43,437 nt of DNA, from IMG/VR virus record IMGVR_UViG_3300017989_001418, positions 1 to 43,437 of that record; one strand, 5' to 3'. The DNA comes from a virus. The notes under the pieces were generated by a model. It did no database searches. It worked only from the letters and a program-made list of their open reading frames with translations, and was not told the origin of the DNA. The translations under genes were made by a program, and so were the position numbers. Positions 3,377 to 42,787 of the stretch are shown in pieces; within the stretch, counting starts at the first letter, position 1, and every line of letters starts with the position of its first letter.

Positions 3377-4408
3377 ATGAGCACGAATAAAGACAACGGC
3401 GACAACGACGTTATCGTTAATGTACGGCTTCGAAAAGGATGCGTTAGAGAACTTCGACATCTCTTGAGTCTGCACGGCTTCAAGACGATGACCCCGAACC
3501 AACGAGATGCCATCGCAAGCGCGCTCAGGGCCGTCGATTGCAAGGCTGGATGCGATCAACAACGTGCGCATAGAGAAACATCGCGCAAGCAGGTCGATGC
3601 GCTAATGAAGGAGCCCGACGAATACAAGAGGGAGGTCGCTCGCTGGAAAGTAAAGTGCGCTCAACTGGAGCTGGACTACCAAGAGATTTGCGCGATTCGC
3701 GATAGGGTAGTAAAGGAGCGCGATGATCTTCATAATAGGTGCGATGGCCTTCGCTTTGGTCGCAATAGAGCCGAGGCTGAATGCAGCGAACTCAAGGAGA
3801 AAGTCGACAGGCTTCAGGAAACGCAAAAAAAAGCGCTAGGCACGAGAGTTATGCAAGCGGGCATTCTGACTATGCTGAATCCGAGAATCACCGAACTCAA
3901 GGCGAGCCTGCGTGAAGTCTCTGAAGAGCGCGATGCACTTCTTGCACAGGTCAATGAGATACGCGAGGAGTCGGCGGACAAGGATAATCGCATTAAGCGC
4001 CTTAGCGGACAACTCGCCGGCGCCAGGTCGGATTTCAAGATGGCCGACAAAGAGGTTTCTAGGCTCCTTGCGGAGGCTAGTGAACTCAAGCGCCAACTCA
4101 CAGATGAACTTTACGCTAACTACAGGTTCGACTTGGAAAAAGCCAAGAGTAAAGTGAAGTCAATCAGGGAACAAGTGAAGGTCGCACATAAGCGGTGCTC
4201 TGAGCTGACGAACGAAATCGATTCGTTGAGGACCGACGCCAAGCGCTACCGGTTTATTCGTGATCGCCTGTCGTTCAGGTCTTGGACGGTTACTTGGAAT
4301 GTGAGGATTGCCAGTAAGTGCGATGCGTTCGATTCTGCAATAGACGAACGAATTGGGGCAACTGAATATGCCGCCGACACCGAGCAAACTCAACAACGAA
4401 CAACGTAG
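3377..4408 (+). CDS. Coiled-coil protein with DAxRYR(F/W)IRD C-terminal motif
   Basis: A 343-aa protein. Residues from about 60 to 290 are rich in heptad-like Leu/Glu/Lys/Arg and should form a long coiled coil. The end carries DAKRYRFIRDRLS followed by FDSAIDERIG, a short C-terminal motif I recall from many small phage proteins of unknown role. Its 3' end overlaps the terminase small-subunit gene by 41 bases. The ATG at 3377 follows the 3331 stop by 45 bases. The function is unknown; the position suggests a helper of packaging or regulation. Confidence 0.75.
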   Translation: MSTNKDNGDNDVIVNVRLRKGCVRELRHLLSLHGFKTMTPNQRDAIASALRAVDCKAGCDQQRAHRETSRKQVDALMKEPDEYKREVARWKVKCAQLELDYQEICAIRDRVVKERDDLHNRCDGLRFGRNRAEAECSELKEKVDRLQETQKKALGTRVMQAGILTMLNPRITELKASLREVSEERDALLAQVNEIREESADKDNRIKRLSGQLAGARSDFKMADKEVSRLLAEASELKRQLTDELYANYRFDLEKAKSKVKSIREQVKVAHKRCSELTNEIDSLRTDAKRYRFIRDRLSFRSWTVTWNVRIASKCDAFDSAIDERIGATEYAADTEQTQQRTT

Positions 4409-5120
4409 GGAGGTGTGTTCCCGATATGAACTTGGTGAGACAATGGCGGGTCTCGCTAAGGAGTTCGGGGTTTCCACTACGAACATCCGCAAGACAGTCC
4501 GTCGCGGTGTTCCAGGCGACGAGGAGGCAACTAAGGTCCCGGTCTCCGGGGCGTCGATTGCTAAGTTCGCTAAGCGAGCAAAGAGCATCCTTTGGCGGCA
4601 AAACGGCAAGGACAAGAAGACCTATAACACTTGGCAGGAGCGCGTCAACGACCTGACGGACAACGGCGGGTGCACTCGGCATCAAGCCATTGTTCAGGTC
4701 AGCAAGGACTACAAGTGCCTGGAGCGGCTGTTCGCGGAGTACGACGTATCGGCGCACGATCCGAACCCAGATTCTCATCCGCAGATTCGTCAACATGGAC
4801 AGCCCGAGCCAGTAGACGGCGTGATGAGCGAGGCTCGCGTTCAGTCGCATCGCGAAAACCTAGCCTGGGCCATTGATATGGCCGGTAGGTATCTGCGCAC
4901 TGGAGAGAAGCCGGACACGACGCCAAACGACGCGGCTTACTTCATGTATCGGCAGGCCATCGATGATCCAAAGGAGTTCTTTGCTAAGTACACGCAGATT
5001 CAGGCGAAGCCGAATGAAGAGGAAGAGGCCGACCGGCTGGCCAGAACAACAGGTAAGCGGGCTATCAGCGAAATCGATCAGATGCTTGATGTGCTGGAGG
5101 AGCACGGCGAAGCGGTATAG
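4368..5120 (+). CDS. Putative terminase small subunit with N-terminal HTH
   Basis: A 250-aa protein. Residues about 8-50 form a sigma/resolvase-like HTH (EQRREVCSRYELGETMAGLA, then FGVSTTNIRKTVRRG) able to bind DNA. The rest is helical and acidic towards the end. It sits directly before the large terminase, the usual place for the subunit that recognises the packaging site. The ATG at 4368 is preferred to a TTG 15 bases upstream; GGGG lies nine bases before it. It overlaps the coiled-coil gene. The assignment rests on HTH plus context, not on a family match. Confidence 0.65.
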   Translation: MPPTPSKLNNEQRREVCSRYELGETMAGLAKEFGVSTTNIRKTVRRGVPGDEEATKVPVSGASIAKFAKRAKSILWRQNGKDKKTYNTWQERVNDLTDNGGCTRHQAIVQVSKDYKCLERLFAEYDVSAHDPNPDSHPQIRQHGQPEPVDGVMSEARVQSHRENLAWAIDMAGRYLRTGEKPDTTPNDAAYFMYRQAIDDPKEFFAKYTQIQAKPNEEEEADRLARTTGKRAISEIDQMLDVLEEHGEAV

Positions 5121-5140
5121 GTTAGGGGTAATACGGGGCA

Positions 5141-6970
5141 GTGGCGTCAATTCAATCACCTTTCGCACACCGTGTGCCGACGGAGGTCAAAGCGAACCTC
5201 CACTATCGCGCTCGCATTCATCGCCGCGTGATGGAAGATCCATCCTACGCGGACGTTCTCTGGAATGCGTGTTCCATCGATCCCATCTTCTATGTCAATG
5301 CCTTCGGTTGGACGTACGATCCGCGCCGGCAGCCGTTTCCGCGTGTGCCGTTCATTCTCTATGAGGAGTTCCAGTGGGAGGTCATGCTGGAGATCGTTAA
5401 TGCGATCCAGGATGGACACGATCTGCTGATTATGAAAAGCCGCGACATGGGTGCATCGTGGATGTGCTGTATCGGGCCGGAATGGTTCTGGCACTTTCGT
5501 CCCGATTTGTCGTTCTTGCTGTTGTCGCGTGTTGAAGAGTACGTTGACAAGCGCGACAACCCTAAGGCGCTGTTCTGGAAAATCGACTTCTTCCACGATC
5601 ACCTTCCGCGTTGGCTGATGCCTCCTGGTTATGATCGTAATATGCACCGCAGCATGATGCACATGCTAAATCCACATACGCGAAGTGTGATTGATGGGGA
5701 GTCAACGAACAAGAGAGCCGGGCGTGGCGACCGTCGAACGGCCATCTTACACGATGAGTTTGCCGCAGTCGAGCAGGGACACTCAGTGCTCCGCGCAACC
5801 CGTGACGCCACGCGGTGTAGGCTGTTCAACTCTACACCAGAAGGTACTGGAAACGCCTACTACGACTTGACACTCACAAACATCAAGAAGCTATCTCTCC
5901 ATTGGTCAAAGCACCCAGAGAAGAATCGAGGTTTGTACACAACCGCCGAAGATGGCACGTTACGTGTGCTCATTGAAGACGGCTATCCAGAAGGATATCT
6001 CCCGATTCTGGACGGCAAGCTACGCTCTTCGTGGTACGACAACGAGTGTAAGCGTGCCGCCTCGGAGCGCGAGATCGCCCAGGAACTCGATATTGATTTC
6101 CTGGGTTCCGGTTACCAGTATTTCTCTGCCGAGGCTGTCAGGGCCAAGATCCGCGAGTACGCCCGTCCGCCGAGTATTATTGGGGACCTCTCGTATGACA
6201 CGACTACCGCGGAGCCGTTGGAGTTTCGTGAGGAGCCAGCGGGCAAGGTGAAGCTCTGGTTTTTGTTGGGTCGCGATGGTAAGCCGCCGCTAGATCATAA
6301 GTACGTGCTGGGAGTAGACGTGTCGGCTGGCACCGGAAGTAGTAACTCAACGATCTGCGGGTACGATGCGGTGACCAATGAGAAGGCATTAGAGTTTGCC
6401 TCTCCGTACATCCGCCCCGAGGAACTTGCCAAGTTGGCGGTTGCTATATCGCGGTGGCTTGGTGGTGCCTATCTCGTTTGGGAATCCAACGGTCCAGGCC
6501 GTCAGTTCGGGTCTCGCGTACTGGAATTGCGCTACCACAACATCTACTACCGTAAGCGTGAAGAGTCGTTAGCGAAGGAGATCACGAAGGTTCCCGGCTG
6601 GGCATCGACTAAGGAAACAAAGTTAGTGCTGATGGGCGAATACCGCTCTGCTGTGGAGAAGGGCGATTGCATTAATCGCTCTAAAGAGGCGATGGAGGAG
6701 TGTCTTGAGTACATCTTCGATGCTACCGGTGGTGTGTCGCATAGCCGCGAGAACAGCAAAGACGATCCGTCCGGGGCCAAGGCGAACCATGGCGACCGCG
6801 TGATTGCAGATGCGTTGGCTTGGCGTGGATTATCTGAGAGACAGAAGAAACCAGATCAGCCGCCGAAGCCAGAGGTCCCGTATGGATCGCTGGCGTGGCG
6901 GCTGAAGCAGCGTGAGTTAGAAAAACCAAAACCTGGGCGCGAGCTACTGAAGAAAGACGGCTGGTACTAA
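5141..6970 (+). CDS. terL: Terminase large subunit (ATPase and nuclease)
   Basis: A 609-aa motor that pumps DNA into the prohead and cuts it. The ATPase half has the variant Walker A KSRDMGAS (residues 99-106), Walker B AILHDE (D205, E206) and coupling motif NSTPEGTGN from N230. The RNase H-like nuclease half has the acidic residues D393 (GVDVSAGTG), E448 (WESNGPG) and D557 (RVIADALAW). The start is GTG at 5141 after GGGG. The stop overlaps the portal ATG by one base. Length and motif order are standard for a terminase, so this is one of the surest calls in the window. Confidence 0.93.
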   Translation: MASIQSPFAHRVPTEVKANLHYRARIHRRVMEDPSYADVLWNACSIDPIFYVNAFGWTYDPRRQPFPRVPFILYEEFQWEVMLEIVNAIQDGHDLLIMKSRDMGASWMCCIGPEWFWHFRPDLSFLLLSRVEEYVDKRDNPKALFWKIDFFHDHLPRWLMPPGYDRNMHRSMMHMLNPHTRSVIDGESTNKRAGRGDRRTAILHDEFAAVEQGHSVLRATRDATRCRLFNSTPEGTGNAYYDLTLTNIKKLSLHWSKHPEKNRGLYTTAEDGTLRVLIEDGYPEGYLPILDGKLRSSWYDNECKRAASEREIAQELDIDFLGSGYQYFSAEAVRAKIREYARPPSIIGDLSYDTTTAEPLEFREEPAGKVKLWFLLGRDGKPPLDHKYVLGVDVSAGTGSSNSTICGYDAVTNEKALEFASPYIRPEELAKLAVAISRWLGGAYLVWESNGPGRQFGSRVLELRYHNIYYRKREESLAKEITKVPGWASTKETKLVLMGEYRSAVEKGDCINRSKEAMEECLEYIFDATGGVSHSRENSKDDPSGAKANHGDRVIADALAWRGLSERQKKPDQPPKPEVPYGSLAWRLKQRELEKPKPGRELLKKDGWY

Positions 6971-8712
6971 TGAAACAGACGAACCCACTCAATGAGAAGC
7001 AATTCAACCGGCTGACTAGCAGTATCGAATGGTCAGAACGCTGCATGGATTTTCCACGCCGTAAGCGCGTTGAGTCAGTCAGGCAGTTTGTGGGGTATCA
7101 CTACTTCACCGGTGGCGCCGAAAAGCGCGTGATTACGCCATTTCTGAAGATGGCTGTAAACATCTACGTTCGGGCACTTGCAGCGCGGGCGCCTCGTGTG
7201 TTGTTCACGGCGCGCAAGCCGGAATATTCTCCAGTGGCGGCGAATCTCACGTCGGCCGTCAACGAGATTCCGAAGGAAATCAATCTAGAAGGGACGCTTT
7301 GCCGCGTTGTGACGGAGGCGTTGTTTTCGATGGGGATTGTCCGCGTTGGACTGCATTCGGTAGGGAAGATTCTCGGGCATGAGTACGGTGCTTCATTTGT
7401 GGATGTGGTTACGCTTGACGATTATTTTGTCGACATGTCTGCTAAACATAGCGACAACATCCAGTATTGCGGGAACGGCTATTGGCTTGACTATGAGGAG
7501 GTAATGGAGTCTGGGAAGTTCAAGAAGAACAAAATCAATGGTCTTCGTCCTGATGAGTATACGTCGCAGGGCGAATATGGGCAGCAGCGTGCTGAAAGTG
7601 TGTCCGTAGACGAGTCGCCGACTACGTTTAAGGATCGCGTCTGGCTGCGTGATGTGTGGCTGCCCGATGAACGGCTGCTTGTGACTTACGCTGTTAAGAA
7701 TAAGCGCCTTTTGAATGTCATCGACTGGGAAGGTCCGGAGCGTGGCCCGTACTCGACGCTTGGATTTGATGACGTACCCGGCAATCTTCTGCCTCTGGCG
7801 CCGGTGTCTGTGTGGCGTGAGATCCATGAGTTAGCGAACTCATTATTCCGCAAGTTGGGTAACCAGGCAGACAGCGAGAAGACGGTTCTAGGGTTCACAG
7901 GCGGAGACGAGGAAGGAGTTAAGAACTTCCAGCGGGCCAGCGACGGAGATGGGATTCTATATGGGTCGCAGCCTCCGCAGAAGCTAACGGCAGGCGGGGT
8001 GAACTCCACTACGCTGGCATTCTACATGCAGTGCCGCGATCTGTTTAGTTACTTCGGCGGCAACCTGGATAGCCTTGGCGGTCTTGCGCCGCAATCTGAG
8101 ACTCTTGGTCAAGACAAGTTGATTAGCGAGGCATCTAGTGCTCAACTTCGTCAAATGTCGGCTAAGGTCGTGAATTTCACGAAGGACGTATTCACGGCGC
8201 TGGCGTATTACGAGTGGAATGATCCCGTGAAGACGCGGACGCTAAAGAGGCAGATACCTGGGACCGATCTGGCAATTTATGTTCCTTGGAACCGCAGGGA
8301 AAAGAAGGGATCTTTTGACGATTATATCCTGTCTATTGATGTTTATTCAATGCAGGACGATTCACCAGGCACGAAGATGCAGAAGTTGATGATGCTCATG
8401 CAGAACTTCGTGATGCCGATGATGCCGGCTATCGAGCAGGCTGGCGGAATCCTCGATGTACAAAAGCTACTTGGGTTGGCGGCAAAATACTCAGATTTTG
8501 AGGAATTAGGCGAGATTGTGCAGTTCCAGGACCAGATCACGCAGACGAATACCGGGCCCGCTGGAATGCCGCCGAATACGACTAGGACCTACGAGAGGGT
8601 GAATCGACCGGGCGCAACTGACCGCGGTAAAAGCCAGATTCTGCAACAGGCGCTCCTCGGCGGTCGGCCGCAAGAAGACGAGGCCGCATCGTTAGGTCGA
8701 CAATCTTCGTAG
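6970..8712 (+). CDS. Portal protein
   Basis: A 580-aa protein directly after the terminase and before the scaffold and capsid genes, where portal genes lie. It has the size and mixed composition of podovirus-type portals, with a central region containing LANSLFRKLGNQADSEKTV and a Met/Gln-rich helical segment (MQKLMMLMQNFVMPMMP) that would line or approach the channel. Twelve copies would form the head vertex through which DNA enters and leaves. The ATG at 6970 overlaps the terminase stop (TAATG). The call rests on order and length more than on a single motif. Confidence 0.8.
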   Translation: MKQTNPLNEKQFNRLTSSIEWSERCMDFPRRKRVESVRQFVGYHYFTGGAEKRVITPFLKMAVNIYVRALAARAPRVLFTARKPEYSPVAANLTSAVNEIPKEINLEGTLCRVVTEALFSMGIVRVGLHSVGKILGHEYGASFVDVVTLDDYFVDMSAKHSDNIQYCGNGYWLDYEEVMESGKFKKNKINGLRPDEYTSQGEYGQQRAESVSVDESPTTFKDRVWLRDVWLPDERLLVTYAVKNKRLLNVIDWEGPERGPYSTLGFDDVPGNLLPLAPVSVWREIHELANSLFRKLGNQADSEKTVLGFTGGDEEGVKNFQRASDGDGILYGSQPPQKLTAGGVNSTTLAFYMQCRDLFSYFGGNLDSLGGLAPQSETLGQDKLISEASSAQLRQMSAKVVNFTKDVFTALAYYEWNDPVKTRTLKRQIPGTDLAIYVPWNRREKKGSFDDYILSIDVYSMQDDSPGTKMQKLMMLMQNFVMPMMPAIEQAGGILDVQKLLGLAAKYSDFEELGEIVQFQDQITQTNTGPAGMPPNTTRTYERVNRPGATDRGKSQILQQALLGGRPQEDEAASLGRQSS

Positions 8713-8789
8713 GCGCTCAACTTTGCGCCTATGACCAACAGAATCCAATTACACTGGAATGTGAGTGTAATCGTAACTGGAGAAGACCA

Positions 8790-9131
8790 ATCGTTACCTA
8801 TTGCTACTCAACCCCCGATGGTACTGTCTATCATCGCGAGTTTCCTATGGGCGAAGCCCCGGAGAAGATTCGCATTGAAGGCGATGGGCAATATGCCATT
8901 CGCGACTATCGTGCTGAAAGCGCAGCCGTTCCATCCACGGCTGGCTGGCCGCTGGAATGCGAGGGCTCTGGTGTACATCCAGGCCAAGCGCAGCAGTTGC
9001 GTGACTACTACGATCGGCATGGATGCCCGACTGAGGTAACTAGCCGTGGAAACCCAGTATATCGAAATGCGGCACATCGCAAAAAGGCCCTAAAGTGCAG
9101 GGCCATGCATGACCGCAATTCCTTTTCCTAA
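8790..9131 (+). CDS. Small conserved phage protein, apparent AUC start
   Basis: The reading frame gives TYCYSTPDGTVYHREFPMG then EAPEKIRIEGDG. It continues with GVHPGQ and ends SRGNPVYRNAAHRKKALK...DRNSFS. This layout (short 'TYxYxxPDG...FPMGxAP' head, HP-Q and AHRK tail) matches a small protein I recall between portal and scaffold genes of many phages. The first ATG in frame (8847) would remove the conserved head. No ATG, GTG or TTG exists upstream in frame before a stop near 8628. GGAG at 8779-8782 lies seven bases before ATC at 8790, exactly where the family would start. Either AUC is used, or a base has changed from ATG. The conservative alternative is 8847-9131 (94 aa). Two small stem-loops (8712-8729, 8749-8770) precede it. 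Confidence 0.6.
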   Translation: MVTYCYSTPDGTVYHREFPMGEAPEKIRIEGDGQYAIRDYRAESAAVPSTAGWPLECEGSGVHPGQAQQLRDYYDRHGCPTEVTSRGNPVYRNAAHRKKALKCRAMHDRNSFS

Positions 9132-30992: not shown

Positions 30993-31229
30993 GTGCAACT
31001 GACGGCGTACGCGACCATCATAAGCGTCGGGGGGCTGCTGGTCGGCGAGGCCGCCAGCGGAACGTTCCCTGCTGCCTCTCAGACGCTTCAGGGCGGCGCC
31101 CTGGCAGTCTTGGCGTGGACGGTGTGGCATCTACTTACCAAGGTCATGCCGGCTCACCAGCGAGCCCTAGAGAGGCAGAGAGAGGACTTCTTGGAGGCGC
31201 TACGAGAGCAGCACGGCAGCGACAAGTAG
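30993..31229 (+). CDS. Holin-like small membrane protein
   Basis: A 78-aa protein. Two hydrophobic stretches (YATIISVGGLLVG and LQGGALAVLAWTVWHLL) are followed by a charged tail (ALERQREDFLEALREQHG). Size, membrane segments and a charged C-terminus are holin features. The start is GTG at 30993. It is the last late gene and is followed by stem-loops, which supports a lysis role. The number of spanning segments, one or two, is uncertain. Confidence 0.6.
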   Translation: MQLTAYATIISVGGLLVGEAASGTFPAASQTLQGGALAVLAWTVWHLLTKVMPAHQRALERQREDFLEALREQHGSDK

Positions 31230-31231
31230 CG

Positions 31232-31248
31232 CGGGTGTAATACACCCG
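31232..31248 (+). terminator. Short stem-loop after holin-like gene
   Basis: CGGGTGT-AAT-ACACCCG is a perfect seven-base-pair stem two bases after the stop codon, without a T-run. It likely acts with the stronger terminator at 31385-31419 or protects the mRNA end. Confidence 0.5.
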
Positions 31249-31338
31249 GATATGTTGATTATGCACCCTTAATTTGCCCACCTTGACATCGCCCCCGAAC
31301 ACTCAAGTTATTTCGTAGTAAGCAGTTACGACGATAAC

Positions 31339-31468
31339 AACTAAGTGTCTACGCGGGCGGTTGCCCCACGGGCTGATTATATTAGGTCACTTGTGATCAT
31401 TCGCAAGTGGCCTTCTTTTATGGACTTACGAATAGTCATTACAACAATGAACTTACTGACACTTAGTT
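31339..31468. other. Candidate attP: inverted 11-bp arms next to integrase
   Basis: AACTAAGTGTC at 31339-31349 is mirrored by GACACTTAGTT at 31458-31468. The word AGTTAC occurs next to or near both arms (31324-31329 and 31465-31470). Tyrosine integrases of temperate phages bind short arm-type repeats around a core just upstream of their gene. The distance (126 bases before int) fits. The core itself cannot be identified without a host junction. Confidence 0.35.
31385..31419 (+). terminator. Rho-independent terminator of the late operon
   Basis: GGTCACTTG and CAAGTGGCC form a nine-base-pair stem (one G-U pair) with a 10-base loop, followed by TTCTTTT. It separates the late operon from the integrase gene. 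Confidence 0.75.
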
Positions 31469-31593
31469 ACCACACCCGCAATACACCATTGCCAGATTTG
31501 TAAAATACGAATACCCAGCCAATAGTGCGACATTTTTGTTCATGGTATCCCCTCGGGGTATATGGGCTATGCTTTATATAGAGGACCAGTATT

Positions 31594-32757
31594 ATGAACA
31601 ACACCGATCAAGTATTGTACTACCGCGAATGGAAGCGATCAAATCCTGAATATCCGCTAACTGTACATTCAAGCGGACAGTGGGTAAAGAAAGTCCGCGG
31701 AAGGACGCACTACTTCGGGCCGCTGTCAGATCCCGAGGCCGCACTTCGCAGGTGGTCGGCGGATAGGCACTACCTGCTGATCGGCATCAACCCGCAGCCA
31801 TCACGGCCGAAGTCGGTCACCATCAAGGAGCTATTTGCGAGACACCTTGCGGACGTGGATGCACGAATTCACGCGGAGCGCATGAGCGCAGCATCCAGGC
31901 GTGACTACACTGCAGTCCACAGGGTATTCCGTGCCGCCATGATGGACGGCCTCCCTGTCTCGCTTCTGGCGCCAGAGCATTTCGCAGAGATCCAAGTTTG
32001 TATTGAGCGATCTGGATTGCGTTTACGCACGCAACGTAATTTGATTGCCGCAACGAGGGCCATCTTCAACTGGGGCCGCAAGATGGAATTAATCAAGAAG
32101 CCCGTCAGGTACGGACCGCGGTTCGCGTCGCCTCCGCTGTATGAGATCGAGGCCGACCAAGAGACGAATGGAGTTTGCCGCTTCATCGATCGCGATGTGA
32201 TCCTTAGTGCTTTGGACATGGCCAAGCCACGCCTGAAGGTCGCAATCCTACTGGGGATCAACTGTGGCTTCTACCCTGGCGACGCCATCGCCATGACGCT
32301 CGACAAACTCCACTTGGACGGCGAGATTCCCTACCACGATATGCGGCGAGTGAAGACGAAGCGGCGCCGGATGGCCGCATTTTGGCCGGAGACGGTAGCC
32401 GCCATCGCAGATTATCGAGACAATCATCGCCGGCTAGCGAAGAGAGACGAGAGGATTCTATTGCTGTCTACTGGAGGGAGGCCATATTCACCGAAGCAGA
32501 ACGGAGACAAACTGCGTAAGTCGTTCGGCGCCATACTCGATAGACTTAGCGCACGCGAGAGAGGCGTCAACCTTGGATCGCTACGGCACACCTACGCCAC
32601 GGTTGTGGACCTCGTGCCCGATCAAGCGATGATCGACTTAACCATGGGGCACGTCGGAAAATCACTCCAGAAGAGGGTATATAAGCAGCTCAATATAAGG
32701 GAACTACCGCGGCTCAAGGTGGTGGCAAATACCGTGAGGGAGTGGCTGTATGGTTGA
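31594..32757 (+). CDS. int: Tyrosine-type integrase, planctomycete type
   Basis: A 387-aa site-specific recombinase. The N-terminal segment has SGQWVKKVRGRTHYFGPLSD, then a SAM-like core-binding domain (about 70-170) and a catalytic domain. Y363 (KRVYKQL) is the nucleophile, H353 (MGH) and R331 (LRHTY) are present, and the Lys of the beta-hairpin lies in VKTKRRR. The first catalytic Arg is missing: box I reads NCGFYPGDA with Y227 where Arg is expected. The first His of box II is Gly. I recall planctomycete integrases with the same 'INCGF' substitution, so this is a lineage trait rather than decay. It would integrate the phage at an attB that cannot be seen here. An in-frame ATG at 31594 is the only good start. 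Confidence 0.85.
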   Translation: MNNTDQVLYYREWKRSNPEYPLTVHSSGQWVKKVRGRTHYFGPLSDPEAALRRWSADRHYLLIGINPQPSRPKSVTIKELFARHLADVDARIHAERMSAASRRDYTAVHRVFRAAMMDGLPVSLLAPEHFAEIQVCIERSGLRLRTQRNLIAATRAIFNWGRKMELIKKPVRYGPRFASPPLYEIEADQETNGVCRFIDRDVILSALDMAKPRLKVAILLGINCGFYPGDAIAMTLDKLHLDGEIPYHDMRRVKTKRRRMAAFWPETVAAIADYRDNHRRLAKRDERILLLSTGGRPYSPKQNGDKLRKSFGAILDRLSARERGVNLGSLRHTYATVVDLVPDQAMIDLTMGHVGKSLQKRVYKQLNIRELPRLKVVANTVREWLYG

Positions 32758-34155: not shown

Positions 34156-34353
34156 ATGAGGCTACTGAAGCCATCTGAGATTGCCGAGGCCCTCTCGGTT
34201 ACAGTCGCTACAGTTCACACAATGCTCAACCGCGGCGTGCTTCCATCAATTGACATCAGCGCCTCGGCCGACCCAAAACGACGAGTTCGGCGCGTCCGCG
34301 AGGATGACTTCCTGGCATTCATTGATTCGCGCCATAACGAAACGGAGAACTGA
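34156..34353 (+). CDS. Excisionase-like HTH protein
   Basis: A 65-aa protein with a MerR/excisionase-type HTH (LKPSEIAEALSVTVATVHTM then LNRGVLPSIDI) and a basic wing (KRRVRRVREDDFLAFI). This is the HTH_17 layout of small Xis and regulator proteins. ATG 34156 is the natural start; the frame is open 66 bases further up across the TTGCAACAA site. The gene lies five bases from the Sak4-like gene. Its separation from int by 1.4 kb makes Xis function uncertain; a DNA-binding role is well supported. Confidence 0.7.
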   Translation: MRLLKPSEIAEALSVTVATVHTMLNRGVLPSIDISASADPKRRVRRVREDDFLAFIDSRHNETEN

Positions 34354-35957: not shown

Positions 35958-36355
35958 CCGACAGACAGCTTGCGATGCTACAGTCGCTAGCGACAACGCT
36001 TGAATACGCAAAGGCCGCCGAGAGGAGGTCGAGGGAATTCAGGGTCGACGTTGAGCAATGGATTGCAGAACTCATCCCGCCGGCAGAAACAGACTCGCAG
36101 ACAGTTACGCTTCCTGACGGAACGAAGATCGTAGTTACGCGAGGCCTGACCTATAAGGCCGACACCGAAGCCATCAAGAAACTAGAGTCTCCTGATTGTC
36201 CGATGCCGCTGAGGTACGAGACAACATGCAAACTCGAACTTGGTACGTATGAACACTACAGAAAGAGCAAGCCTGCGGTATTTGCGCAAATCGCAGAGCA
36301 TGTTGAAGTCAAGCCTCGTAAAGTCGCCGTGGCAATCAAGGAGACAAAGACCTGA
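35936..36355 (+). CDS. Phage early protein of DUF7173-like type
   Basis: A 139-aa protein (133 aa from ATG 35954). It has an N-terminal helix (MLQSLATTLEYAKAAERR), then VTLPDGTKIVVTRGLTYKAD and a beta-helical end. I recall phage early proteins with this 'helix, then gVtvTyxxtrKvDtexL' order grouped as DUF7173; the match is from memory. Each of the two duplicated start sites has AAGGA. Its stop overlaps the next ATG (TGATG). The gene lies between the ssDNA-binding pair and the nuclease gene. Confidence 0.6.
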   Translation: MPQGTHMTDRQLAMLQSLATTLEYAKAAERRSREFRVDVEQWIAELIPPAETDSQTVTLPDGTKIVVTRGLTYKADTEAIKKLESPDCPMPLRYETTCKLELGTYEHYRKSKPAVFAQIAEHVEVKPRKVAVAIKETKT

Positions 36356-36744
36356 TGAGTCCGAGCACTATCGCGATCTACGGCGCAGGCTGCGCAGCGC
36401 TGGCGTGCCTCTACACTCTCGTTGAACTCCGCAGGCGTGGTCGTCCATGGCACCGCAACTGCTACTCGCAGGCGTGGCTTGACGGATGGTCCGTAACGCA
36501 TGTAGGGCACGGAATTGTCATGTTCGGCATTGCGAAGGCTGTATTCCCTGGCACATTCTATGAGCCGTTGGGATTCGTAATTGCCGCTGAGGCCATATGG
36601 GAATCGTTCGAAAATCGCAATTGGGTGATCAGAATGTTCCGCCGGGCCGGAGACAAGAACTACTTCGGTGATAGTGTGGCGAACTCAGCCGGCGACATCC
36701 TTGCCTGTATCGTTGGCGCTCTCTTTACTGGGTTCTTCGTCTAG
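36355..36744 (+). CDS. DUF2585/UPF0314-like membrane protein
   Basis: A 129-aa membrane protein with hydrophobic segments near 4-22, 48-66 and 110-129. It has a conserved set THVGHG, AEAIWESFEN and YFGDSVANSAGDILAC. The pattern 'SHxxHG ... EAxWExxEN ... GDSVxNSxxDxxxxxxGF' is that of the bacterial UPF0314/DUF2585 family, normally chromosomal and of unknown function. ATG 36355 overlaps the previous stop. A host-derived gene in a phage early operon is unusual; it might alter the host membrane. The role is unknown. Confidence 0.65.
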   Translation: MSPSTIAIYGAGCAALACLYTLVELRRRGRPWHRNCYSQAWLDGWSVTHVGHGIVMFGIAKAVFPGTFYEPLGFVIAAEAIWESFENRNWVIRMFRRAGDKNYFGDSVANSAGDILACIVGALFTGFFV

Positions 36745-37092: not shown

Positions 37093-38405
37093 CCGACATC
37101 AGCAAGTACACGCAACAGCCGTCTAAGACTGTACAGGCGATTCTCGACTGGCACAAGCAAGTTGGAGACTCCGAGCAAGCACGCGGATACCTGGGCGCGT
37201 CAATCATCGGCGCAGAGTGCGAGCGATACCTGTGGTACGTCTTTCGCTATGCGTGCAAGCCAAACTTCGATGGCCGGATGTATCGTCTGTTCGAGACCGG
37301 CGCCCTCGAAGAGGCTAAATTCGTCAAGGAACTCCGGGCCATCGGATGCGAAGTCCACGACCACGACCAGAACGGCGAGCAATTCGAGGTCAAGGCGATC
37401 GGAGGACACTTCTCCGGCCACATGGACGGATGCGCACTCGGCATCCCTGAGGCGCCGAAGACTTGGCATGTTCTAGAGTTCAAGACCCATAACGCAAAGT
37501 CATTCAAGAAGCTGGAGAAAGAAGGCGTTAAGGCGTCGAAGTCACAGCACTACTCGCAGATGATGGTCTACATGCATTTAACAGGCATGCAGCGTGCGCT
37601 GTACCTGGCGAAAAACAAAGACACCGACGAACTCTACTCAGAGCGCATCCGACACGATAAGACCGAAGCCGAGGCGCTGATGGAACGCGCAAATCGTGTA
37701 ATCACCAGCAGTCATCCGCCGGAGCGGATCTCAGGTCGTAGAGACTACTATCTGTGTAACTGGTGCGATGCGCAGGATGTGTGTTGGGGATGTGCAGATC
37801 GAGCGCTTCCAGTCCCGGCGCTATCGTGTCGGCAATGTTGCTACGCTACTCCTGCTATGGACAGCGACAACGGCCGATGGATATGCGACAAACACAATCG
37901 CGGGCTGTCTGATAACGACCAGCGAAAAACGTGCCATGATTTTCTTGTGCTGCCAGGGATGATCGCTTTCGCCGACGCAGCAGGACACGGCAACAACGAA
38001 TCTGGCGAGTGGATCGAGTTCATTCGCGAAGATGGAGCGATGTTCCAGCATGGAAACGCAAGAAGCAACTGCTACGGCGGCGCAGAACTCATGGCGCTCC
38101 AGCCAGACCAGATCGGCGATCCGATGCTTGACAGCGCAAAGAGACTCTTTGGCGCCGTCGCCGCTGGCTGCGTTGACGATGTGCTCCAGCGATATCCAGA
38201 AGAGGATTCTAGAATCGCCTGGAAGGGGCACCCATCGCAGCTCATTCAGGCGTGGCAGGAAGTATACACAGAGGATATCCGAGAACTAAAGCCGTTAGCG
38301 CGATTCGATCAGTGGAACTACACCGCGTCCGAGTACGATGGCGGTCGCCTTGCGATCCTCTGGAAGGAGGACGTAGCCGCCGAGATTCGGCAGGGAGTTG
38401 AGTGA
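37089..38405 (+). CDS. RecB/Cas4-like PD-(D/E)XK nuclease with Cys cluster
   Basis: A 438-aa protein. The N-terminal part follows the phage exonuclease/Cas4 plan: LGASIIGAECERYLWY, D113 in GHMDG, E130-x-K132 in LEFKT, and Q153 in QHYSQMMVYMHLTG. A Cys-rich segment follows (CNWCDAQDVCWGC, CRQCC, and CxxH nearby) that could hold a zinc or iron-sulfur cluster. The C-terminal 150 residues are an added domain of unknown role. GTG at 37089 overlaps the upstream stop. It would trim DNA ends for the Sak4-like recombinase. Confidence 0.8.
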   Translation: MTDISKYTQQPSKTVQAILDWHKQVGDSEQARGYLGASIIGAECERYLWYVFRYACKPNFDGRMYRLFETGALEEAKFVKELRAIGCEVHDHDQNGEQFEVKAIGGHFSGHMDGCALGIPEAPKTWHVLEFKTHNAKSFKKLEKEGVKASKSQHYSQMMVYMHLTGMQRALYLAKNKDTDELYSERIRHDKTEAEALMERANRVITSSHPPERISGRRDYYLCNWCDAQDVCWGCADRALPVPALSCRQCCYATPAMDSDNGRWICDKHNRGLSDNDQRKTCHDFLVLPGMIAFADAAGHGNNESGEWIEFIREDGAMFQHGNARSNCYGGAELMALQPDQIGDPMLDSAKRLFGAVAAGCVDDVLQRYPEEDSRIAWKGHPSQLIQAWQEVYTEDIRELKPLARFDQWNYTASEYDGGRLAILWKEDVAAEIRQGVE

Positions 38406-40012
38406 TGTACACCCTCCGCCCGTACCAGCAGCGAGCGCTCGACGCCCTGCATACGCACATCTGCACGAAGTCAGGGAACCCGTGCGTTGTGCTACCGACA
38501 GGTGCCGGGAAGTCGGTTGTGATGGCATCGGCTATCCACAGATGGAAGGAAGATGCTCCATGGCTAAGGGTGTGTGTGTTGGCTCACCGCAAGGAACTCG
38601 TCGTACAGAACGCAAGCAAGCTACGCTCTGCGTACTCAGACGGAGAAGTTGGCATCTTCTCGGCAGGTCTCGGCCAGAAGGACTACGACGCGCCGATTCT
38701 CTACGCTTCGATTGACTCGATCTACAGAAGAGCCGGGGAGTTCCCGCCGTTTCATGCGCTATTCGTCGATGAGGCTCACCGCATCCCCCCGAGGGGGGAA
38801 GGTAAGTATCGTACATTCATTAACGAATGCCGGAGATTCAACAAGGACCTGAAGGTGGTCGGCTGGACGGCGACGCCATTCAGGATGGGATGCGGGAAAA
38901 TCTGCCACCGCGACCATATCCTCAATGAGGTGTGCGTAGACGTTCCGGTTACTGAGCTGATCAACGACGGATACCTATGTCGTCTACGATCTAAAGTAGG
39001 CGAAGCCCAGCCACAGCTAGCCAGCGTGAAGCGCAACTCCGGAGGGGACTACATCTTAAAGAGCCTCTCGCAGGCCACCAACAGCGGCGGAGTTGTCACG
39101 CGAGCGGTCCAGGAGATTGTGCGGATTATGAACGCCGAGAACAGGCGTGCGGCTGCGATCTTCTGCGTCGACCTGGAGCATTGCAAGGCCGTACACGCCG
39201 AACTCCGAAGAGCTGGAGTGTTCGCCCCACAAATTACAGGGAAAACACCACATCACGAGCGAGACCAAATCGTAGCTGAGTTCAGGGCAGGGCGGCTCCG
39301 CGGAATATGTAGCGTAGGCGTCCTCACTGAGGGATTCGACAGCCCGAATATCGACTGCATCGTTCTGCTTAGACCAACGCTGTCCAGAGGGCTCTACGCC
39401 CAGATGGTTGGCCGCGGTCTTCGCCCGCACCAATCGAAACAAGACTGTCTAGTGCTGGACTTCGCCGGGTGCATTGCAGAACACGGGCCGATCGATCTTC
39501 TCGACGGAGATCCCATTGTTATGGCCACCTGCGCGGAGTGCCGCGAGTCGTTCAGTCGCGCCATCGGCGAGTGCCCGGTGTGTGGCTGGCAGATCCCCAA
39601 ACAGGAAATTGAGCGGCTGGAGGCTACGGAGCGCGAGCGCAGGATGCACGGCGACAAAGCGTCAAGGCAGTCCATCCTTTCGGAGCCAGAGACGCACAAA
39701 GTCGATGCGATCATTGTCTCTCGTCATCAGAAAGTCAATAATCCAGACTCGCTACTAGTGCAGTACCGTTGCGGAATGTCGATGTTTCGGGAATGGGTGT
39801 GCCTGGATCATGAAGGCTTCGCAGGAAAGAATGCACATCAGTGGTGGCGAGCGCGCTTTCCCGATGAGTCCGTGCCTTCAGTTGACGACGCGATTGGAGA
39901 CATGTTCCTGAGCCAGCGGCTCTTGGAGTGGACAAAGACGGTCACGGTTGCGCGGTCGGGTCGGTACTTCGATGTGGTGGACTACAACAGGATAACAGTA
40001 GGAGACAACTGA
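38405..40012 (+). CDS. SF2 DNA helicase (DEAH box) with zinc ribbon
   Basis: A 535-aa helicase of the UvrB/RecG-like phage type. The motifs are RPYQQRALD, PTGAGKS (31-37), DEAH (122-125), TATPF (155-159), LTEGFDSPN and QMVGRGLRPH (from Q333). A zinc ribbon follows (C376, C379, C390, C393). The C-terminal part (about 440-535) is a conserved extension. Start ATG 38405 overlaps the nuclease stop (TGATG); GTG 38402 is the alternative. Unwinding of branched or replication DNA in the early operon is the expected job. Confidence 0.88.
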   Translation: MYTLRPYQQRALDALHTHICTKSGNPCVVLPTGAGKSVVMASAIHRWKEDAPWLRVCVLAHRKELVVQNASKLRSAYSDGEVGIFSAGLGQKDYDAPILYASIDSIYRRAGEFPPFHALFVDEAHRIPPRGEGKYRTFINECRRFNKDLKVVGWTATPFRMGCGKICHRDHILNEVCVDVPVTELINDGYLCRLRSKVGEAQPQLASVKRNSGGDYILKSLSQATNSGGVVTRAVQEIVRIMNAENRRAAAIFCVDLEHCKAVHAELRRAGVFAPQITGKTPHHERDQIVAEFRAGRLRGICSVGVLTEGFDSPNIDCIVLLRPTLSRGLYAQMVGRGLRPHQSKQDCLVLDFAGCIAEHGPIDLLDGDPIVMATCAECRESFSRAIGECPVCGWQIPKQEIERLEATERERRMHGDKASRQSILSEPETHKVDAIIVSRHQKVNNPDSLLVQYRCGMSMFREWVCLDHEGFAGKNAHQWWRARFPDESVPSVDDAIGDMFLSQRLLEWTKTVTVARSGRYFDVVDYNRITVGDN

Positions 40013-40013
40013 T

Positions 40014-40538
40014 ATGGCATCACTAGTGAACGGTAGCAGCGGAGTTAGAATTGCATTTACGTGCTTAGACGGAAAAAGGAGGAGCCTAACAATCGATAGA
40101 GCGCTGACTCCCTGGCAAAGGGCTGCATATAAGAAGCACATCGAGGCAATGCTTGCTTCTGCAAAGAGCGGACTCGCATTGCCAAATGATACACTAGTGT
40201 GGCTTGAAAATGTTGACCATGATGTAATCAGCAAGCTTGAGAAATTCGGTGTCCTAAAAAGAAAAGAAGACGATCAGTGTGGGCATGTTATCGAAATTAC
40301 ACCTAATCCTCAATGCACTGCTGATGCTACAAGCCGAGTAGATCGAATAGCCCTTAGGCCGCGAGAGGCTGCTGAGTCTCTCGGAATGAGCGAAAAGGGG
40401 CTATGGAATATCACATACCCACGTGGATCGCTTCATTCTGTGAAAGTTGGGAGTCGTACTCTCTATTTCATTCACCACATTAAGCAGTGGGCCAACGAAC
40501 AGTTAGTTCGTCAGGAACAAAAGGCAGACGAAATATGA
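40014..40538 (+). CDS. Integrase N-terminal domain fused to excisionase-type HTH
   Basis: A 174-aa protein. Residues 1-85 follow the N-terminal arm/SAM-like domain of planctomycete integrases: VRIAFTCLDGKRRSLTID, WQRAAYKKHIEAMLASAKSG, then a 'LPNDTLVWLENVDHDVISKL' part. No catalytic domain follows. Instead residues about 108-165 carry a MerR/Xis-type HTH (LRPREAAESLGMSEKGLWNI and a wing SVKVGSRTLYFI). It overlaps the primase-polymerase gene by four bases (ATGA). The composition suggests a DNA-binding regulator that could recognise the same arm sites as an integrase; function is inferred. Confidence 0.7.
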   Translation: MASLVNGSSGVRIAFTCLDGKRRSLTIDRALTPWQRAAYKKHIEAMLASAKSGLALPNDTLVWLENVDHDVISKLEKFGVLKRKEDDQCGHVIEITPNPQCTADATSRVDRIALRPREAAESLGMSEKGLWNITYPRGSLHSVKVGSRTLYFIHHIKQWANEQLVRQEQKADEI

Positions 40539-42787
40539 CAGACCTCCTAACTCAAGCACTAAAGCTCGCGCAGCACGGATGGGCCATCCATCCGTGTCTT
40601 CCGCGGCAGAAGATCCCGGCCACTAAACACGCCGTCAAAGACGCCACAACGGACGAGCAGCAAATTCGCGTGTGGTGGGAGCGATGGCCCGAGGCGAACA
40701 TCGCGATCGCATGCGGCAAGCCTAGCGGTGTCTACGTTGTTGATGTTGACGTGTCTGCGGCAGGCGACGTGGACGGCCGACAATCGCTTCGGGAATTCCC
40801 GGAACTCCCAGACACAGTACGACAGGACACTCCGCGTGGTGGTTTCCATGCGTTTTTTAGGACCGATAACCCGCCCAAGAACAAGAACGCTTTCCGGCCC
40901 GGAATCGATATTCGTGGTGACGGATACTACGTGATTGCTGCGCCGTCAATCCATCCGAACGGCAAGCCATACATCTGGACGCCTGATCGAGCACCGTGGG
41001 AATTCGAGTTATCCGAATTTCCGTACTTCATGCGTCCAGCCACCAAGGCGCCGTGGGAGGCGGTACCGGCACAATCGACCCAACCACCTATACTCCCCGA
41101 TGACGACAATCTCCGTCGCGCTAGTCTGTACCTACAGCAATGCGACCCGGCCGTACAGGGAAACGGGGGTCACGACAGGCTACTCTGGGCATCGGTGGCG
41201 ATGGTTCACGGATTCATGTTATCCGACAAGCATGCCCTAGACCTGCTGATTCGCGAGTACAACCCACGATGCCTCCCGCCATGGAATCTCGACGACCCAC
41301 GCGACCGCAAGGACTTCGAGCGAAAGGTCAATGAGGCCCGAAAGCTCGTTCCGAAAGAGCAGCCCGGCTGGTTACTCAACGACGCGGCTTACGCCCCGGC
41401 GCCGCCAAACGTGAGCATCGATATTAACGCCATACGGAGAAACGCAGTGCCGAAAGGTCCGGTCTCCGAGGGGGCATACTTAAGCCAAGACGCAGAACTT
41501 CGCTACCTCACGCAACCAACTGGCCTGCTTGGGGAGCTATGCGGATGGATCAACGGCATATCAATTCGCCGTCAGCCATTCCTGTCGTTAGCGGCAAGTC
41601 TGGCATTCCTAGGAGCGCTTTTTGGCCGCAAGATCAGTGACCATCTCAACAATCGCACGAACCTCTATTGCATGGGAGTAGCACCGTCGTCAGCGGGGAA
41701 GACGAAGATCCTGTCGTGCCTGCGCAGGCTCTCTGCGGAGGCCGGATGCGTGGGGCTAATCGGAGGAGATGGGTTCGCTAGTGACTCAGCAATCGAAAAG
41801 CGCCTAGCTCGCCAACCGTCAACCGTGTTTCTTCTGGATGAGATCGGCCATCTGTTCACGCACATCAAATCAGGTGCCAACCAACATACAGTTCGCATCA
41901 TCCCAACGCTAATGAAGCTCTATTCGGCAGCAGGCGATATCTACCTCAACCGCGAATACGCCGAAGACGAAAAGCAAGTTCAGATAGTCGAACCATGTTG
42001 TTGTATCTACGGGACATCGACTGAATTACGGTTTACGGCTGGCATCAGTGAAGATGAGCTAGAGGACGGCTGGCTGTCCAGGTGCCTCGTATTCAGAACC
42101 GAGGGACGACCAGAGAAGCAGCGAATAAAATACAGCATCAAGACCCCACAGTCAATAGTACAGCAGGTTCTAGACTGGCACACGCGCAAGATCGAGGTTC
42201 ACACAGAACCAGGCGACCTAACAGGAGTACTTCAGGGCTCAACTGCCGCACTACTGCCGGCGCCTCCGCCGAAGATCGAGGTGGAAACGGAGCCGGACGC
42301 AGAGTGCGCTTTTGTGGAATTCGATAGAGAAGCCACTAGAAAGGCAAGCCAGTATCCGAGGTATGATGCAATCTGGATGAAGTCGGAAGAGAACGCCCGC
42401 AAAATTGCACTCATCGTGGCTGCATCAGAGAACTTCGATTCTCCATGCATCACAATAGCAAACGCCGAGTACGCAATACGGCTAATTCGCTATCTCATCA
42501 CGGATTTCTGCGGGACACTAGCAACTGCCATTACCACGAATTCAGTGGACAGCCAGAAACAGCGCCTACTGTCGGTAATCAAGCAAGCTGGCACCAGCGG
42601 ATGCAAACGCAGCGAACTAACAGTGCGCAGCCAATGGACAAAGAAGCGAGAACGGCAGGCGCTTCTTGATGACCTCATAGAAGCAGAGCAGGTTGTTGTT
42701 GAGTGCCAGCCCCCTAGGTCTGTGGGGAGGCCGGCGGTTGTATATTGGACGACCACAAACTACCGAAAGCACATGGATCAGAAATGA
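40535..42787 (+). CDS. Bifunctional primase-polymerase with helicase domain
   Basis: A 750-aa replication protein. Residues about 10-165 are an AEP primase-polymerase (PF09250-like): GWAIHPCLPRQKIP, D70/D72 in VVDVDV, H105 in GGFHAF, and D125 in GIDIRGDGYYVIAAP. The C-terminal half is a P-loop helicase-like (DUF3987-type) domain with Walker A GVAPSSAGKT (381-390) and Walker B FLLDEIGH (D435, E436). ATG 40535 is preferred. This single chain would prime and help unwind DNA at the phage origin; the origin itself was not found. Confidence 0.85.
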   Translation: MTDLLTQALKLAQHGWAIHPCLPRQKIPATKHAVKDATTDEQQIRVWWERWPEANIAIACGKPSGVYVVDVDVSAAGDVDGRQSLREFPELPDTVRQDTPRGGFHAFFRTDNPPKNKNAFRPGIDIRGDGYYVIAAPSIHPNGKPYIWTPDRAPWEFELSEFPYFMRPATKAPWEAVPAQSTQPPILPDDDNLRRASLYLQQCDPAVQGNGGHDRLLWASVAMVHGFMLSDKHALDLLIREYNPRCLPPWNLDDPRDRKDFERKVNEARKLVPKEQPGWLLNDAAYAPAPPNVSIDINAIRRNAVPKGPVSEGAYLSQDAELRYLTQPTGLLGELCGWINGISIRRQPFLSLAASLAFLGALFGRKISDHLNNRTNLYCMGVAPSSAGKTKILSCLRRLSAEAGCVGLIGGDGFASDSAIEKRLARQPSTVFLLDEIGHLFTHIKSGANQHTVRIIPTLMKLYSAAGDIYLNREYAEDEKQVQIVEPCCCIYGTSTELRFTAGISEDELEDGWLSRCLVFRTEGRPEKQRIKYSIKTPQSIVQQVLDWHTRKIEVHTEPGDLTGVLQGSTAALLPAPPPKIEVETEPDAECAFVEFDREATRKASQYPRYDAIWMKSEENARKIALIVAASENFDSPCITIANAEYAIRLIRYLITDFCGTLATAITTNSVDSQKQRLLSVIKQAGTSGCKRSELTVRSQWTKKRERQALLDDLIEAEQVVVECQPPRSVGRPAVVYWTTTNYRKHMDQK

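Follow-up and report, generated by a model that had tools for sequence, protein, structure and literature searches.

An integrase N-terminal domain joined to an HTH_17 excisionase-like domain in the replication operon of a tailed phage

What could a protein do that carries the N-terminal domain (NTD) of a tyrosine integrase and the HTH of an excisionase, that has no catalytic domain, and whose gene is located among replication genes? The question is raised by a single gene in a virus record of 43,437 bases, the whole of which was analysed and is referred to here as the window. The features on which the argument depends are the following, all on the plus strand:

40014..40538, + strand, the fusion gene (174 aa) in the helicase-primase interval, with its ATG at 40014 and its stop codon at 40536-40538
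40014..40268, + strand, residues 1-85, the planctomycete tyrosine integrase NTD, with a beta-beta-beta-alpha-alpha-alpha order predicted
40269..40337, + strand, residues 86-108, a linker of ~23 residues with low predicted confidence (pLDDT about 47-75)
40338..40517, + strand, residues 109-168, HTH_17 excisionase/RDF-like winged HTH, assigned by profile homology
38402..40012, + strand, upstream neighbour, a DEAD/ResIII helicase (PHROG 16)
40535..42787, + strand, downstream neighbour, a Prim-Pol / DUF3987 primase, joined to the fusion gene by an ATGA overlap
31594..32757, + strand, the phage's own tyrosine integrase, recognised by the core profile and with a different N-terminus
34156..34353, + strand, a separate HTH_17 protein (HTH_17 E 4.3e-9) near int, at the head of the early operon

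The fusion gene has an intact frame and is translationally coupled to both the helicase and the primase. Its start follows the helicase stop codon (40010-40012) by one base and is preceded by an AGGAG at 40000-40004, while its own stop codon overlaps the primase start in the sequence ATGA (40535-40538). Genes for Sak4-like, DUF669, Cas4-type exonuclease and RusA proteins belong to the same operon, and an ORF elsewhere in the early region (36355-36744) gives a clear match to DUF2585 (E 1.5e-14). The initial annotation, which had located the gene within the replication operon rather than beside int, was correct on this point, as the integrase gene lies 7.3 kb away. It was equally right that the ORF lacks a catalytic domain: 31594-32754 is the only part of the window that the integrase core profile picks out, there is no Pfam integrase match on the ORF, and no SAM-like core-binding domain follows the NTD.

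The assignment of the first 85 residues to the NTD of planctomycete integrases, proposed from the sequence alone, is borne out by several comparisons. In a BLASTP search the ORF matched a planctomycete-type viral integrase (from contig L003) with an E value of 8e-11, the alignment starting at residue 1 in both proteins, and 22 integrase N-termini, mostly from planctomycete genomes, align end to end with residues 1-85 at about 30% identity. A profile built from 69 other NTDs, from which the fusion protein had been left out, matches its residues 1-82 with an i-E of 5.3e-14 (Z set to 100,000). The score of 55 bits, compared with a median of 108 for the integrases, is below that of most of them and marks the domain as a diverged member of the family, and two nearly invariant residues are changed (L27 to I and G28 to D). 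The loss of these residues, together with the low score, means that the DNA specificity of the domain may have changed or decayed.

Within the integrases the NTD directly precedes the Pfam Phage_int_SAM (SAM-like core-binding) domain, which begins near residue 89, and the arm-binding domain of heterobivalent integrases is located directly N-terminal to the core-binding domain. AlphaFold2, applied to the NTD and HTH families separately, predicts strands at residues 3-7, 10-16 and 22-27 and helices at 33-52, 58-66 and 69-77 (pLDDT 90-93 for most blocks), with a well packed beta-beta-beta-alpha core at a pLDDT of about 92. Structure prediction, which had been proposed as a check on this half, thus yielded a confident fold, for which Foldseek found no significant counterpart in BFVD or, with either the full model or the isolated NTD as query, in the PDB. 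No consistent match to a Pfam arm domain was obtained, nor was a Pfam family dedicated to the planctomycete integrase NTD found. From its position and predicted fold we infer that the NTD is an arm-type DNA-binding domain, a label that stays at this strength because the fold searches returned nothing significant.

The C-terminal half had been described as an excisionase-type HTH, and this description holds and can be refined to the HTH_17 kind. The Pfam HTH_17 model itself matches the ORF weakly (E 0.0075; 17 bits compared with a cut-off of 27), while a profile of 45 relatives, again with the fusion protein left out, finds residues 111-165 with an E value of 2e-14. The closest single relative is 52% identical, and all 46 aligned members match Pfam HTH_17 (best E 6.7e-14). 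When the family profile, in this case with the fusion sequence included, was compared with the PDB, the best solved structures were RdfS (3.6e-6), the Pukovnik Xis Gp37 (4J2N; 0.0011) and AlpA (0.0069). By sequence homology, the C-terminal half is of the HTH_17 / AlpA / RdfS kind, a group that contains RDFs.

One would like to know whether the two halves are ever found near one another in other genomes. A search with the C-terminal half among 392 planctomycete genomes revealed small HTH proteins encoded upstream of integrases that carry the NTD. As a guard against circularity, the arrangement was counted in 17 loci that had been fetched by the integrase alone and had at least 4.5 kb of upstream DNA; an HTH gene was found upstream and on the same strand in 14 of them and on the opposite strand in none, at distances from the integrase ranging from 5 bases to 4.8 kb. 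Conversely, of eight viral contigs retrieved with the HTH as the sole query, six also encode an NTD integrase, located downstream in five. The gap between the two genes is often filled by a primase or AAA gene, as in locus L149, where the HTH gene (5746-6009) is followed by a Prim-Pol-like gene (6033-7316; so labelled from its sequence rather than by a profile search) and the integrase gene (7564-8862). Of 22 loci tested, 17 have a tRNA gene on the other strand that overlaps the 3' end of the integrase gene or comes after it; the planctomycete elements for which this is the usual arrangement include L002, L011, L144, L147, L149, L153, L155, L156, L158, L164, L172, L173, L175, L178 and others. 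Finally, NTD distances and HTH distances are correlated over 42 pairs (Mantel rho 0.26, reached in 17 of 5000 permutations).

The upstream HTH gene, the primase in the gap, the tRNA gene at the integrase end and the correlated distances suggest that these loci are elements integrated at tRNA genes that carry an excisionase-(primase)-integrase module. Since the counterparts of the two halves are usually encoded side by side, the ORF unites two proteins that belong to one recombination module. Homologues of the N-terminal half do occur without the HTH, which the initial annotation had regarded as evidence against a fusion; this is literally the case in the integrases, yet the idea of a fusion stands because in those same elements the HTH gene adjoins the integrase gene. 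The distances of the fusion halves to the 42 pairs show no positive correlation (rho -0.34), so the halves need not derive from one element, and a single present-day element as the source of both is unsupported.

Several of the genomes also contain partial copies of the NTD. In L079 a nearly free-standing NTD of 98 residues (4950-5243), which may be a truncated duplicate, is encoded immediately 5' of the gene for a complete NTD integrase (5227-6567), and the same place is found in L021. One planctomycete genome (G187) has 11 NTD matches on contig C1, several of them in truncated integrases, and this contig is an apparent graveyard of integrative elements.

The fusion itself appears to be rare. 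A second example was not encountered among the 129 NTD frames and 103 HTH frames of the loci examined, and the short NTD frames checked, drawn from two sets of some 390 genomes apiece, were all contig ends or integrases broken by truncation or frameshift. Relatives of the whole protein turned up neither in pattern scans of viral contigs nor in tblastn searches of phages and plasmids, and scanning with the window's primase, helicase and exonuclease returned nothing, or one distant contig. A published description of such a fusion was not found in the open-licence literature, in agreement with the earlier impression that the arrangement is undescribed. In three sister phages (L300-L302), found via their terminase (helicase 54-58%, primase 38-47% and RusA 49-56% identical), and in a prophage (L082), the helicase and primase genes are directly adjacent or overlapping. 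The GC3 of the fusion gene, 0.41, is also below the range of the 14 other genes measured (0.47-0.67), and it alone has a negative codon score. The lack of the gene at the same place in the sister phages and the prophage, together with its low GC3, indicates that it was most likely inserted recently between two already joined genes.

The initial annotation had suggested that the fusion might guide or compete with the integrase of the phage itself at 31230-31593. This suggestion was not supported by comparison, as the N-terminus of the phage integrase is unrelated to the fusion NTD (E 1.2), which makes shared arm sites unlikely. The NTD profile has no match in the window besides the fusion gene, which is consequently not accompanied by a cognate integrase with a matching NTD. 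Moreover, the separate HTH_17 gene at 34156-34353 is located 1.4 kb after int; its product is, judging from homology, likely the phage's own excisionase or a regulator, and it is a better candidate for the former than the fusion gene. The putative attP upstream of int (31226-31484) contains an exact 11-bp inverted pair, AACTAAGTGTC, at 31339-31349 and 31458-31468, which the phage integrase may use as arm sites; there is no copy of this repeat near the fusion gene.

That the fusion serves as the excisionase or RDF (or as an integrase competitor) of its own phage is therefore rated as very improbable, given the unrelated integrase N-terminus and the presence of a dedicated HTH_17 gene, and the gene is also missing at the same place in the sister phages, in spite of the fact that its C-terminal half belongs to an RDF-containing group and that RDF genes such as rdfS can be located away from int. 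A somewhat less remote, but still improbable, explanation is that the gene is a captured and decaying remnant of a mobile-element recombination module that has no present function. The foreign base composition, the departure of the NTD from conserved residues, the lack of relatives of the whole protein and the many truncated NTD integrases in genomes would all be expected of such a remnant, but the intact frame, the good ribosome-binding site and the exact start/stop coupling to both neighbours would not, and both domains match over their full length, with an NTD that AlphaFold2 packs well.

A role in transcription or replication deserves more weight, though it too is on the unlikely side: the fusion could regulate its own early operon, its heads having been recruited from a mobile element and its sites being located in the phage genome. 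HTH_17/RDF proteins often double as regulators; RdfS, whose gene belongs to a distant operon, acts as a repressor at its own promoter and as an activator of int (PMC11963761), and AlpA activates its own promoter (PMC6092414). The precedent of RdfS in particular keeps this explanation alive, and it is favoured further by the tight translational coupling within the helicase-primase operon and by related elements (L149, L145 and L186) in which an HTH gene immediately precedes a primase gene. On the other hand, no repeats of at least 10 nt were found around the fusion gene, and the sister phages have the same helicase-primase operon without it. We infer that the best-fitting functions are either this one or that of a cut-incapable binder of the sites of other elements.

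The last of these is the explanation that we favour, albeit tentatively and at somewhat less than even confidence: the fusion would act as a cut-incapable blocker or repressor on composite arm and excisionase sites, most likely those of other elements. Its two DNA-binding heads would recognise adjacent arm-type and excisionase-type sites that are otherwise bound jointly by separate proteins, and, as the core-binding and catalytic domains are absent, the protein would bind but could not recombine. By merely occupying composite sites it would be a dominant blocker or repressor. In lambda, Xis promotes or helps the loading of the Int NTD at the neighbouring P2 site (PMC4880445). The likeliest targets would be the att and int-promoter regions of integrative or satellite-like elements with an HTH-(primase)-integrase module rather than the phage's own attP, since its own integrase has an unrelated N-terminus and a second HTH_17 gene is found near int. 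The location in the early replication operon would ensure that the fusion is made when the phage replicates. Arm-type sites were identified neither near the fusion gene nor in the elements.

Potential targets of this kind appear to be at hand. The viral contig L003, which carries an intact pair of HTH and NTD-integrase genes, comes from metagenome 3300017987, as does IMGVR_UViG_3300017987_001289 (L203), which is 99.95% identical to positions 4141-7967 of the window (3.8 kb); NTD-integrase elements therefore occur together with this phage or with one nearly identical to it. It is conceivable, but a good deal less than likely, that the fusion is a phage weapon against satellites or rival elements, in which the arm-reading half of a rival integrase and the excisionase or activator of the same rival, captured and joined, occupy the composite att/promoter site of that element and block its excision or induction. 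Were this so, planctomycete RDFs would work by contacting the integrase NTD directly.

The fusion is a new domain architecture composed of known parts. It shares the NTD with planctomycete tyrosine integrases but lacks their SAM-like core-binding and catalytic domains, and its C-terminal half belongs to the same HTH group as RdfS (8DGL), Pukovnik Xis (4J2N) and AlpA (8C3T), which, unlike the fusion, are single-domain proteins of 58-91 aa, none of them described with an integrase domain. The two types of head that act jointly at P2-X1 in lambda, as Xis and the Int NTD, are separate there and covalently joined here. The planctomycete elements with separate halves, with their HTH_17 protein, primase and tRNA-linked integrase, resemble the core module of the PICMI satellites (int, AlpA of PF12728/PF05930 and a DUF3987 primase; PMC10803314) and the PICIs (PMC6092414). 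In contrast, the window, which encodes a terminase of its own and a phage-sized gene set, is a tailed phage and not an int, AlpA and primase satellite, and only the fused protein is found beside a primase of phage lineage.

As a natural fusion, the protein provides ‘Rosetta stone’ evidence for cooperation between the integrase NTD and an excisionase, a contact that can be tested on one polypeptide. On the evidence of its sequence, it would be a natural cut-incapable binder and could be a counter-satellite device. It also points to a candidate excisionase for a large family of planctomycete integrases that target tRNA genes, and the loci in which the HTH, often a primase, and the NTD integrase are encoded separately represent a satellite-like module in planctomycetes.
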